This document shows positions 346 through 5,043 of a DNA stretch of 5,110 bases, piece after piece. Under the pieces are notes generated by a model. The model made no database searches. It was not told where the DNA came from and saw nothing but the letters and a program-made list of their open reading frames with translations. Made by a program: the position numbers and the translations under genes. How positions within the stretch are numbered: position 1 is the stretch's first letter; each line of letters opens with the position of its first letter. The stretch is from a bacterium (GTDB lineage: Bacteria > CSSED10-310 > JAJRTK01), in assembly GCA_024278345.1 (NCBI GenBank), contig JAJRTK010000342.1, positions 1 to 5,110 of the forward strand, written 5' to 3'.

Positions 346-2370
346 GTGGGAGATGCCAACTTGCTCCACATGTTTCGTCTTGAAGACGTGACCGTCGAAG
401 GGCCACCGCGTCAGCAACTGAAGCGTTTGCTGGCTCACGTCCGGTCGCTACCGGGGTACAAGACGGTGGCGGATCAACTTTCGGAGTTTGATTTTCGGCA
501 CACGGGTAGCTTGTCCTTCTGCGTGCAAGTCCGGACGGAAGTTGCGAAGAGCTTCCTTTTGAAGGTCTATTGGCCGGCGGTCCAGAAGTTGTCTCCAGCA
601 TCCAAGCTCGTGCCGCTGGTGTTGTCGACGGGCCTCAGTGATTTTGATCGGATCTTGGGAGGAGGCCTGCTTCGAGGGAGCCTTGTATGTTTGCAGGGTG
701 AATCTGGCACAGGCAAGACTCTCCTTGGGCTGTGGCTTGCCCATGAGTTGTCGAAGCAAGGGGTTCGCGTCGTGTACGCGACACAGTTCGATCATCCTCC
801 GGAGCTGGTGCGGTACGCGCTGGGGATCAGCCTTGGGTTGCTGCCAGCCACCCGGAGCGGCGCCCTTGAGATTCGAAGTGTCGATTCCATGGAGAAGCTC
901 GAAGAGATCGCCAACGAAATTGAATTGGGCTCCCGCAATGTTCTGGTCGTCGATCAGATCGAAGATTTCCTGGAAACCGACACGGCTCTTGTAGGGCTGG
1001 TGACGCGGATGCGGAAAGCGATGCGCGGTGGACAGGGGATCAGCATCTTGCTCTGTTCGCCGACGACCCTCGATGACCGCAGCCGTCGGCGCGCGGATGG
1101 GCTTGTGTTGCTGGAGCTTCCCCAGCCGGGCTCAGGGCGTGTTTCCCACACAAGGACGGTTCGTGTTCTCAAACACCGTGGGTTGCCGGTGAATCCCGTT
1201 GCATGCACGGTGCATATCTCGGGTCGCGGGATCGAGATCGCCGAGATGAACATCGAGGGCGGAATCCGGCCCTGGCAAATCGCGGAATCCCTCCGCAACT
1301 GTCTATTGAACGCGGTGGAGAGGAATGCCGAAGACATTTTTCTTCTGGAAGGCGAGCCTGTTGCTCTACGGCTTAGCGAGGATCTTCTTTTCGATAAGGA
1401 TCTGAAAGCCGATCCACGGGCGCTATTCGACCTGTTGAGCACGCTCCAGCGGGAGCGATTCGCGGCAAACAGCGACGTTGATTTTTCTTTCAATTTTTTC
1501 TTGCCCGACAAGAGTCGCGTCCGGTTTCGGGCCAATCTTCATCTGCAAAAGGGGCAGCTTGCCGCCACCATTCGACCCGTACCGAAGAAGATTACGGGCT
1601 TTGATAGTTTGACGTTGCCGAGGCCGATTCAGAACCTGGTGGAGCTGGAACGAGGCCTTTTGCTGGTGTCGGGGCCAACCGGTTCAGGGAAATCGACGAC
1701 AATCGCGGCGATCCTCGATGCTATCCTCCGGAGCCGCTCCACACATCTCATCACCATCGAGAACCCCATTGAGTACGAGTTCACCGGCTACACGGGGATC
1801 TCTCTCATCGAGCAGCGGGAAATCTATACGGACACCCCCAGTTTCGAGCAGGCCGTGCAGGGAGTTCTTCGGCAGAATCCCCAGATCATCCTGCTGGGCG
1901 AGTTGAGGGACCAAGAAACCACGGAAGCGGCCCTTGCCTTGGCGGAAACAGGTCACCTGGTTGTCACGTCGGTCCATGCCTTGAGCGCGGGGAAAGCGAT
2001 CATGCGCGTGGCCAACATTTTCACCGGTGATCGGCGCGAGCAGGCATTGGCACAGCTCAGCGTCGCCCTGGCGGCTGTCATCTACCAGCGTTTGCTCCCC
2101 AGGGCTGATGGCAAGGGCATCGTTCCCGCCGTGGAAGTGATCCGGTCGCCAGATGTCTTCCGCCGGGCAATGGAAAACCCCGACTCCAATTTCGATGTCG
2201 CGGTAGATCGTGCGATTTACGGTGGATCTTTTGGTGCGGGAGCGGTGTACCGCCTGGAAGAGAGCCTCCATTCGCTCTACAAGAAAAAACTGATTTCCCT
2301 GGAAACCCTCGTCGCCCACGCCAACAGGCTGGAGTGGTTGGAAGCGCGGGTTGGGGAGCGGTTCTCTTAG
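346..2370 (+). CDS. KaiC-like / PilT-like dual ATPase fusion protein
   Basis: This 674-residue protein carries two P-loop ATPase modules. Residues 1-90 are an unrecognised N-terminal segment. Residues 93-302 are KaiC-type RecA fold: STGLSDFDRILGGG entry motif, Walker A GESGTGKT (118-125), Walker B NVLVVD (198-203), and the KaiC-type LKHRG motif (275-279) with K276 and R278 followed by a GRGIEI strand. The RadA zinc finger is absent. Residues 305-665 match PilT: an N-terminal PAS-like domain with SDVDFSF and RVRFRANLHL, Walker A GPTGSGKS (443-450), Asp box TIENPIEYEF (470-479) with E472, Walker B LLGELRD (516-522) with E519, His box TGHLVVTSVHA (535-545), and a C-terminal KKLISLETLVAHA helix. 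The four-cysteine zinc motif of PilB/GspE is absent, which favours PilT (retraction) over the extension ATPases. PilT family members are cytoplasmic hexamers at the pilus base. KaiC's catalytic Glu pair is replaced by F148-D149. The start is uncertain: GTG 346 is the first possible start after an in-frame stop at 313-315; ATG 370 (residue 9) is the alternative. Domain calls are firm; the role is inferred. Confidence 0.93.
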   Translation: MGDANLLHMFRLEDVTVEGPPRQQLKRLLAHVRSLPGYKTVADQLSEFDFRHTGSLSFCVQVRTEVAKSFLLKVYWPAVQKLSPASKLVPLVLSTGLSDFDRILGGGLLRGSLVCLQGESGTGKTLLGLWLAHELSKQGVRVVYATQFDHPPELVRYALGISLGLLPATRSGALEIRSVDSMEKLEEIANEIELGSRNVLVVDQIEDFLETDTALVGLVTRMRKAMRGGQGISILLCSPTTLDDRSRRRADGLVLLELPQPGSGRVSHTRTVRVLKHRGLPVNPVACTVHISGRGIEIAEMNIEGGIRPWQIAESLRNCLLNAVERNAEDIFLLEGEPVALRLSEDLLFDKDLKADPRALFDLLSTLQRERFAANSDVDFSFNFFLPDKSRVRFRANLHLQKGQLAATIRPVPKKITGFDSLTLPRPIQNLVELERGLLLVSGPTGSGKSTTIAAILDAILRSRSTHLITIENPIEYEFTGYTGISLIEQREIYTDTPSFEQAVQGVLRQNPQIILLGELRDQETTEAALALAETGHLVVTSVHALSAGKAIMRVANIFTGDRREQALAQLSVALAAVIYQRLLPRADGKGIVPAVEVIRSPDVFRRAMENPDSNFDVAVDRAIYGGSFGAGAVYRLEESLHSLYKKKLISLETLVAHANRLEWLEARVGERFS

Positions 2371-2558: not shown

Positions 2559-4346
2559 GTGATCATGGAAAATCCGTTACCGCCACGGCTGGCCGAGGAT
2601 CGAGCCGGCCAGTGGGGGAAGTGGCTGGCCCTTCTGTTCTTGGCGGCACTTCTCTTCCGGCTGCTCAACTTGTGGTTGATGAGCGAGAATGCCTACCTGC
2701 TCAAGCCCCGAGGCGACGCGCTTTACAACCTCCAGTGGGCACGGGAACTGGCAATAACGGGATTCTCCCCTGGAACGGCCTACCACCAGGCCCCTCTTTA
2801 TCCCCACATCCTCGGGGTCGCCTTGCGGTTTCTGCCCCATCCCTTGTGGACGATGCGTTTGTTGCAGGTGCTGCTGGGATCGCTGGTTCCGCTTCTGCTT
2901 GCTTTGGCGGCGTACCGGGTTTGCCGGCACCGCTTCGCGGCCATCTTCATTGGGGTCCTGGCGGCTTTTTATGGGCCGTTTGCTTTCTACGACTCCCTTT
3001 TGCTCAAGGAATCGGTGGGGGTCTTCCTGTTGTCGCTCTTTCTTTTTCTTGCAGTCCGCGACTTGGACCGACCGACTCTCTGGGGATGTTTCTCTTCTGG
3101 GCTGGTGCTGGGGATCTTCTGGATGGTGCGAGAAAACGCTCCGCTCCTGAGCCTGCCAGTTTTGGGCTTTCATTTACTGGCGGGGGGCTTCCGCCGTCCC
3201 ACCCTGGGAAGGCGAATCTTACTTTCGGGGCTGTTCGCGCTGGGGACCGTGGTCTTCACCGGTGCCAACGTAGCTTCCAGCTTGTGGGGCAACGGAGAGT
3301 TTGCCCGGCCCGTCGTGATGAGCGGGGTCAACTTTTACCTTGGGAATCATCCCGACTCGGATGGCTTTTACCGGCCCATGGAGTTCCAGACGGGAAACGT
3401 GATGTCGGAGGTGGAGGAATTCCAGCGGGAAGCGGCCCGGAAGTTTGGTGAGACCATGGATCCCGGGCGAACGGGACTCTATTTCTGGTCAAAGAGCCTC
3501 TCCTTCATCCGGACCCAACCCTTGCGATGGCTTTGGCTCCAGGCAAAAAAGTTCCTGATCTTTTGGAATGCCTATGAAATCCCCGACAACTACGACATCC
3601 GGTTTACATCGCATTTTCTTCCCTATTTGGGGTATGCGCCGGGGTTTACTTTGGTGGCAGTGCTGGGGCTACTGGGACTGGCCCTGGGTGAACAGAATTC
3701 CCACCGACTGCTGTTTGCGGCGTTGATTGGGATCTACTCTGTTTCCGTGGCCCTCTTTTTCGTCTATGCCCGATATCGCCTCTTCGTCGTGCCCATGCTC
3801 TTGATCTCCAGTTCGTTGGCGGTAAGAGAATTTTTGGGCCGTCTGGAGCAAGGGCAATGGAAGAAACTATGGAGAGGGTTCAGCCTTGCCGCTCTTCTCC
3901 TGGCCTTGCCGCTCAATCCGGTATGCGCAGGCGAGGCGCGGCGAATCTCGAGTTTTTCCTGGGCCGCTTATGGAGGATACCTCTATGATACCGGGAGGAA
4001 ACAAGAAGCGAGGGGGGCGGTGAACCGCTCACTTTCCTTTTCCCAAAAAAACGTCTGGGCCCATTTCTATCTTGGTGAGCTGGACTTTGAGGCAAGGCGT
4101 TTTCGTCAGGCGGCGGAGCATTATTTGAAGGGCTTTCCCCAGTCGGTGGACTCAGATTATTTTTTCAGAAAGGCCGCTGGGGCGCTCATGGCAGCCGGCG
4201 ATAGAGTAGAGGCCATGGAATTGCTCCGGCGCTGGGAGAAGCTGGAGCCAGAAAACCCAGAACCAGCGCGTCTGCTGGCAGGGCTCCTTGGAAAAGAAGG
4301 AAGAGGGAGGCCAGCCGGCAGTGCCCCTCTAAAAACCCAGAAATAG
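2559..4346 (+). CDS. GT-C glycosyltransferase (GT39/ArnT-like) with C-terminal TPR tail
   Basis: This 595-residue integral membrane protein probably transfers sugar from a polyprenyl-phosphate donor to an envelope acceptor on the outer face of the inner membrane, as GT-C enzymes do. About 11 hydrophobic segments are visible, near residues 22-41, 99-119, 126-145, 150-166, 174-191, 195-210, 218-236, 361-377, 383-402, 405-421 and 439-456. The loop after the first has RGDALYNLQWA with the likely catalytic D53, then YHQAPLYP (75-82), a typical family motif. E151 in LLLKES may be the second acidic residue. The large loop at 237-360 holds GVNFYLGNHPDSDGFY and FWNAYEIPDNYD, motifs I associate with bacterial proteins annotated as family 39. 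YARYRLFVVP (403-412) is the usual late-segment motif. Residues about 466-575 form two or three TPR-like helical pairs. An odd segment count would place both the catalytic loop and the TPR tail in the periplasm. The acceptor is unknown. Pilin or another surface protein is possible given the upstream motor gene, but this is inferred only from adjacency. Confidence 0.88.
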   Translation: MIMENPLPPRLAEDRAGQWGKWLALLFLAALLFRLLNLWLMSENAYLLKPRGDALYNLQWARELAITGFSPGTAYHQAPLYPHILGVALRFLPHPLWTMRLLQVLLGSLVPLLLALAAYRVCRHRFAAIFIGVLAAFYGPFAFYDSLLLKESVGVFLLSLFLFLAVRDLDRPTLWGCFSSGLVLGIFWMVRENAPLLSLPVLGFHLLAGGFRRPTLGRRILLSGLFALGTVVFTGANVASSLWGNGEFARPVVMSGVNFYLGNHPDSDGFYRPMEFQTGNVMSEVEEFQREAARKFGETMDPGRTGLYFWSKSLSFIRTQPLRWLWLQAKKFLIFWNAYEIPDNYDIRFTSHFLPYLGYAPGFTLVAVLGLLGLALGEQNSHRLLFAALIGIYSVSVALFFVYARYRLFVVPMLLISSSLAVREFLGRLEQGQWKKLWRGFSLAALLLALPLNPVCAGEARRISSFSWAAYGGYLYDTGRKQEARGAVNRSLSFSQKNVWAHFYLGELDFEARRFRQAAEHYLKGFPQSVDSDYFFRKAAGALMAAGDRVEAMELLRRWEKLEPENPEPARLLAGLLGKEGRGRPAGSAPLKTQK

Positions 4347-4473: not shown

Positions 4474-5043
4474 ATGCAAACGAAGAAGATTGATGAGGCG
4501 ACGAAAGTCTATTGGTCGGAGCTTCCGGCTCCGATCCGCCCATTCCGGATCTATTGGGGCGGCGGGAGGATTTGCCGTCTCGAACTCGGAAATAGCCCGC
4601 CAGAGACCCGCGCCGACTGGTGGAAAAAGTGGTTTGGCCCCGTGGAGATCAGGCGGAAAGATCTGCCTCAAGAGTGGGCCTTGAAGCTCGGCAGCTACTT
4701 CAGGAATGGAATTCCCCTCCCAGCCCTTCCCATGGATCTCCGAGGAACTCCTTTCCAATTGGCCGTCTGGAGAAGGCTAAAGGAAATACGCCATGGCCGG
4801 CTCACGACGTACGGCGAGTTGGCCCGCCGGGTGGGCCGCCCCAAAGCCTTTCGCGCCGTGGGCGCCGCCATGGGCGCGAACCCGATTCCCCTTCTGATTC
4901 CCTGTCACCGGGTTCTGCCTGCCAACGGAGCGCTGGGCGGATTCGGCGGAGGGGCAAGACTGAAAAGATGGCTCCTTTGGCGCGAGGAATCTCTTCCCCA
5001 CGGACTTTTCGAGCAGATGGAGCTTTTTCCAGACCTCGGATGA
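4474..5043 (+). CDS. ogt: Methylated-DNA--[protein]-cysteine S-methyltransferase (Ogt/MGMT)
   Basis: This 189-residue cytoplasmic protein reverses O6-alkylguanine damage by moving the alkyl group irreversibly onto its own cysteine, a single-use direct repair. Residues about 1-85 form the divergent N-terminal domain. The C-terminal DNA-binding and catalytic domain (about 88-173) is canonical. It starts RGTPFQLAVWRRL (90-102), followed by TTYGELARRVG (111-121) with Y113. The recognition helix carries the base-flipping arginine R127 (FRAVG, 126-130). The Asn hinge N136 (GANPIP) and active-site motif IPCHRV (142-147, nucleophile C144) follow, then the GGFGGG turn and LKRWLLWRE, whose E171 matches the conserved active-site glutamate. 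All expected residues are present, so it should be active. Length is typical of single-domain Ogt. There is no Ada-type AraC regulatory domain. Its neighbours are unrelated in function and the 127-bp gap suggests separate expression. The identification is secure; the ogt symbol is the usual name for this non-Ada form. Confidence 0.96.
   Translation: MQTKKIDEATKVYWSELPAPIRPFRIYWGGGRICRLELGNSPPETRADWWKKWFGPVEIRRKDLPQEWALKLGSYFRNGIPLPALPMDLRGTPFQLAVWRRLKEIRHGRLTTYGELARRVGRPKAFRAVGAAMGANPIPLLIPCHRVLPANGALGGFGGGARLKRWLLWREESLPHGLFEQMELFPDLG

Follow-up and report, generated by a model that had tools for sequence, protein, structure and literature searches.

KaiC-type domains are ATP-binding domains of the family to which the circadian-clock protein belongs. 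In archaea, one member of the family, ArlH, works together with a motor protein. ArlH is hexameric, binds ATP without hydrolyzing it, stimulates and switches the motor ArlI, and detaches on autophosphorylation (PMC8978795). A double-ring model of ArlI and ArlH was fitted into maps obtained in situ, and in this model ArlH is located on the face of ArlI opposite the N-terminal protrusions (PMC8978795). Archaeal type IV pilus (T4P) loci are also accompanied by KaiC-family genes, which were predicted to be regulators from gene neighbourhood only (PMC4858521). KaiC-family proteins are already known (ArlH-ArlI; PMC8978795) or predicted (T4P; PMC4858521) as regulators of related archaeal motors.

We identified a bacterial gene that encodes a KaiC-type ATPase and a PilT-type motor in a single chain. 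The window analysed (a stretch of DNA of 5,110 nucleotides) coincides exactly with a 5.1 kb contig, and thus the gene is seen without wider context. The fusion gene (674 aa; positions 346 to 2370, forward strand) was defined by profile matches and by codon usage that is continuous across the junction. It lies in one unbroken frame of 674 codons from GTG 346 (684 codons from stop to stop). Judging from the sequence, the true start may instead be TTG 361 (with GGGAG at 347 to 351) or ATG 370. The central claim of the preliminary description, that one uninterrupted frame encodes two different P-loop ATPases, is confirmed: matches to the Pfam profiles for KaiC (PF06745) and T2SSE, sequence matches in the PDB and AlphaFold models all give the KaiC-PilT architecture, far beyond chance.

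Three other genes were identified, all on the forward strand. An open frame to TGA (SEIAYARESEQDKAQLMVEEALLHTHQPV*; positions 3 to 92), to which no family was assigned, is cut by the contig end and is probably the C-terminal part of a gene upstream. Pfam and NCBIfam profiles identify a PMT/Agl23-like membrane glycosyltransferase with C-terminal TPR (2559 to 4346), which has no demonstrated link to the fusion, and an Ogt-like methylated-DNA--protein-cysteine methyltransferase (4474 to 5043), which is unrelated to it.

The KaiC-type domain, a RecA-fold ATPase, spans residues 90 to 301 (positions 613 to 1248, forward strand) and was recognized by profile, structure match and alignment. PF06745 matches residues 94 to 300 over profile positions 2 to 228 of 231 (2.4e-17; 61 to 63.5 bits against a cut-off of 26.6), and a PDB sequence search with the first half of the protein returned KaiC chains (best 3.2e-13). 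An AlphaFold model of residues 1 to 315 (pLDDT 76.7, pTM 0.76) resembles KaiC CI and CII with Z of 25 to 27 (Foldseek 2.5e-16; best VIA-align Z 26.6, rmsd 2.0 over 212 residues); the alignment used for this model was built from KaiC-family rows, so the structure match depends in part on the sequence match. Among NCBIfam models, ArlH (NF052589) ranks second for this half and is covered in full, with a score of 41.6 bits, below the cut-off of 215. The tandem pair of the two-domain clock protein is absent, as Pfam finds a single KaiC domain and then T2SSE. By its sequence, the N-terminal half is most like KaiC, and is neither an ArlH family member nor a two-domain clock KaiC.

Of the features that had been listed as evidence for a KaiC-like domain, the following were found: Walker A (GESGTGKT, 118 to 125, with K124), the Walker B residue D203 and LKHRG (275 to 279, including KxRG at 276 to 279). 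An alignment with ten KaiC/RadA-type domains shows that K124, D203, K276, R278 and G279 are kept. However, the same alignment shows that the KaiC pair of catalytic glutamates after the second strand is absent and is replaced by F148-D149; the second glutamate, D149 in the fusion, is present in 10 of the 10 domains compared. Because the glutamate pair is replaced while Walker A, Walker B and KxRG are kept, we infer that ATP binding is retained and that hydrolysis is slow or absent.

Loss of the catalytic glutamate would also fit a degenerate RecA/RadA-type domain that serves only for oligomerization or as a scaffold, with no nucleotide chemistry. Such a domain could have originated in a recA-pilT fusion, given that several genomes of the phylum have recA directly upstream of a pilT. 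We consider this quite unlikely. PF06745 scores 61 bits whereas RecA scores 13 (only 13 to 14 bits, far under KaiC, for which reason RecA/RadA identity was rejected), Walker A, Walker B, K276 and R278 are intact, and KxRG and the distance from it to the last strands are both KaiC-like. In addition, the PilT half of the fusion is placed by the tree outside the group of pilT genes linked to recA.

An N-terminal extension (residues 1 to 88; positions 346 to 609, forward strand) precedes the KaiC-type domain. It has no match in Pfam, to either the KaiC or the PilT family, and AlphaFold predicts a small alpha/beta region with the order beta-alpha-alpha-beta-beta-alpha. The order of helices and strands raised the idea that residues 1 to 92 repeat the PilT N domain in degenerate form, which was rejected (hhalign probability 0.5%, with a score within the shuffled controls). 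The KaiC-type domain is followed by a short connector of ~12 residues (302 to 313; positions 1249 to 1284, forward strand), delimited by the aligned ranges of the structure superpositions. The domain ends at residue 301, which corresponds to KaiC CI residue 249, and the PilT fold starts at 310 to 314; in KaiC, CII starts at 258. In the models the connector is thus about as long as the CI-to-CII connector that lets KaiC stack two rings, a geometric hint that is suggestive only.

The PilT module is complete (residues ~314 to 670). It comprises an N-terminal PAS-like domain (residues 314 to 418; positions 1285 to 1599), with an RFR motif at 393 to 395, and a C-terminal motor domain (residues 419 to 674; positions 1600 to 2367), both on the forward strand and both supported by TIGR01420, structure and alignment. 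In Pfam, the C-terminal half scores 131 bits for T2SSE (PF00437), and a PDB sequence search returned PilT chains (best 1.4e-62). A full-length AlphaFold model based on PilT relatives has pLDDT of ~90 over residues 314 to 670 and recovers the two-domain PilT fold, with Z of 40.7 and rmsd of 2.5 over 348 residues against Geobacter PilT4 (6ojy). The KaiC half is poor in this model because the alignment of PilT relatives had no KaiC rows. A combined MAFFT alignment placed KaiC rows onto the PilT half, and therefore the two halves were modelled separately. We identified Walker A (GPTGSGKST, 443 to 451, with K449), Asp box (E472), Walker B (E519) and His box (H537/H544) residues, and 74 of 100 conserved PilT columns are kept in the alignment, including K449, E472, E519, H537, H544, R393, R395 and R554. 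The earlier recognition of a PilT-like module with a PAS-like domain and these four motifs therefore holds in profile, motif and structure comparisons.

The fusion has the whole fold and the core catalytic residues of the PilT/PilU retraction ATPases (TIGR01420; PDB 6ojy, 9n32), but differs from them in an N-terminal addition of ~310 residues that contains a second P-loop domain, in a score below the family cut-off, and in changes to several invariant residues and to the AIRNLIRE-type motif. TIGR01420 matches residues 316 to 660 over positions 2 to 339 of 343 with 281.2 bits, below the cut-off of 319.1. Three positions that do not vary among 37 relatives differ here: N461 is L, D473 (in the Asp box) is N and D513 is Q. 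The AIRNLIRE-type C-terminal retraction motif is lost near residues 605 to 612, where it aligns with DVFRRAMEN (RNLIRE to RRAMEN). A tree of 55 PilT modules places this half on a long branch (2.6) without a close sister. On these comparisons the fusion would be a divergent PilT/PilU member at most, and the PilT half appears to be a divergent motor and not an evident pseudogene. Given the length of the branch, the three changed residues and the degenerate C-terminal motif, it may be inactive as a retraction motor.

Elsewhere in the same genome, pilB, pilT and pilC are adjacent in a canonical cluster (contig C400), and PilN and several further T2SSF genes were identified. Both pilC and a pilT separate from the fusion are thus present, and we conclude that a pilus on which the KaiC-PilT protein could act exists. 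About ten other PilT-like genes were identified in this genome. One is a HEAT-PilT (contig C245, 2 to 2509, forward strand) and another is a cNMP_binding-MshEN-PilT of 624 aa (contig C168, 1211 to 3082, forward strand), with a cyclic-nucleotide-binding domain and an MshEN domain of the c-di-GMP type at its N terminus. HEAT-repeat-PilT fusions of ~840 to 960 aa, followed by a second pilT, recur in several genomes of the phylum (on C245 and at three further loci). The expectation that PilT proteins normally stand alone does not hold here, given how frequent such forms are in this genome and phylum. Like the KaiC-PilT protein, these proteins carry an input domain N-terminal to PilT, but it is not an ATPase: it consists of HEAT repeats in one type and of a cyclic-nucleotide and MshEN sensor in the other. 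Because HEAT-PilT and cNMP-MshEN-PilT coexist in the genome, and HEAT-PilT occurs in sister genomes, we regard KaiC-PilT as one of several N-terminally regulated PilTs and the addition of N-terminal inputs as a habit of the lineage.

Two other arrangements of PilT-like genes were observed. The placement of recA directly upstream of pilT is conserved, being shared by several genomes of the phylum (including that of the fusion, on contig C54). Contig C11 (2569 to 4778, reverse strand) encodes two adjacent and extremely divergent PilT-like genes, with branches of 3.3 and >4, next to a response-regulator-like gene.

The presence of other motors (the canonical pilT on C400 and the ~ten paralogues) bears on whether the PilT half is still a retraction motor. 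It could instead be a PilU-like accessory or signalling ATPase, with two nucleotide-responsive halves that modulate the canonical PilT/PilB or another target. The changes N461L, D473N (Asp box) and D513Q, loss of the AIRNLIRE-type motif and the long branch would be consistent with such a role, and no pilus genes were found on the 5.1 kb contig. However, all core T2SSE catalytic residues are kept and the whole PilT fold is predicted with high confidence, and we view this role as rather improbable, though deserving of consideration.

The preliminary description had recognized that two genes might have been joined during assembly. In this case, an assembler would have merged two genes, from either a single genome or two strains, and no such protein would exist. 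The assembly is fragmented (550 contigs) and the contig ends coincide with those of the window, as might be expected if this were so. However, the junction is in frame, at a domain boundary and with a connector of natural length, and the PilT half begins at residue 314 with its entire N-terminal helix and carries no remnant of a start region. Codon usage and GC3 (0.67 to 0.71) are continuous over the N-terminal half, junction and C-terminal half and are typical of the genome (codon-usage fit of 0.135 for the KaiC half, 0.137 for the junction and 0.126 for the PilT half), and of the three frames the native one fits best. To arise by accident, a join would have had to keep the frame, fall on a domain boundary and leave a natural connector and continuous codon usage, and is thus unlikely.

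A second KaiC-PilT fusion was sought in ~770 distinct genomes in total. A full search of all 8 genomes of the phylum found no relatives with both halves. Among the best 3 to 5 candidates per genome from ~386 genomes across the domain and 386 genomes of one large phylum, no row spans both halves. None of the best 5000 of 72,556 plasmid records covers 80% of the fusion protein, a scan of viral contigs for relatives returned nothing relevant, and a contig scan of genomes returned one distant secretion ATPase only. In a Rosetta-stone test, a split KaiC gene adjoining pilT was not found in the phylum, and the matches adjacent to pilT are recA. Of the PilT frames of 920 to 960 aa considered as candidates for further KaiC fusions, the three that were read out are HEAT-PilT; a 758 aa PilT frame in genome G105 was not resolved to a fusion. 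The search also took in the surroundings of genome G104, for the most part genomes already covered, and the phylum of genome G031 (3 genomes). That neither the genomes, the plasmid records searched nor the viral contigs yielded a second fusion favours an assembly join. Frame and composition argue the other way, and we assign the join a low probability. The fusion has been seen once, in a genome assembled from fragments, and is a candidate requiring confirmation.

The ArlH-ArlI pair and the fusion both combine a KaiC-family RecA-fold protein with a hexameric motor of the T2SSE superfamily. ArlH binds ATP without hydrolysis (PMC8978795), and in the KaiC-type domain of the fusion the catalytic glutamate is replaced. 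ArlH and ArlI are two archaeal proteins of archaellum assembly and rotation, whereas the fusion is one bacterial chain with a motor of the PilT rather than the ArlI type. ArlH is a stand-alone protein of the arl operon; its counterpart here is part of a PilT chain, and the contig has no archaellum genes. The geometry counts against the parallel, as ArlH is placed opposite the N-terminal protrusions of ArlI (PMC8978795) but the KaiC-type domain is tethered on the N-terminal side of PilT. The cyanobacterial and bacterial KaiC, a two-domain circadian or stress ATPase, is like the fusion in its CI/CII fold, KxRG and connector length. Unlike KaiC, the fusion has one KaiC domain, FD in place of EE, and PilT rather than CII as the second ring domain.

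Given the KaiC-like N-terminal half, the rank of ArlH as second-best model and the parallels with ArlH-ArlI and archaeal T4P, we lean towards the interpretation that the protein is a type IV pilus motor ATPase of the PilT/PilU family with its own KaiC-type ATP-binding regulatory domain, which gates the motor. The single occurrence, the lack of pilus genes on the contig and the divergence of the PilT half weigh against this interpretation. By analogy, the best reading is that the protein would be the bacterial equivalent of archaeal ArlH-ArlI in covalent form, and that PilT would take the position of the second KaiC ring. The PilT part would form the usual hexameric ring under a PilC platform and occupy the position that CII takes in KaiC. 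The six tethered KaiC domains would make up a second ring, by assembly or by docking. The KaiC domain would act mainly as a nucleotide-state switch and not as a fast ATPase, and in its ATP-bound or assembled state may permit or brake the PilT cycle in the way that ArlH acts on ArlI. The protein would be one of several specialized PilT paralogues with different N-terminal inputs in the genome. A more tentative proposal is that the hexamer has two tiers, with PilT in the CII place, and that the KaiC ring, which would bind ATP with slow or no hydrolysis, times or gates retraction.

No pilus motor of such architecture was known to the preliminary description, and we found no description of a KaiC-PilT fusion in a literature search of partial coverage. 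The fusion is thus likely undescribed. It unites in one chain a KaiC-type regulator and a motor, which until now had been known to pair only as individual proteins of archaea. That the two are naturally fused speaks for a direct physical coupling of KaiC and motor, and bears on the control of ArlI by ArlH and on the action of KaiC proteins on pilus motors. As a single protein with fixed 1:1 stoichiometry, it could be used to measure KaiC control of a T2SSE-type motor. For the organisms themselves, the finding indicates that this lineage can diversify PilT via different N-terminal inputs, including KaiC, HEAT, and cNMP with MshEN.
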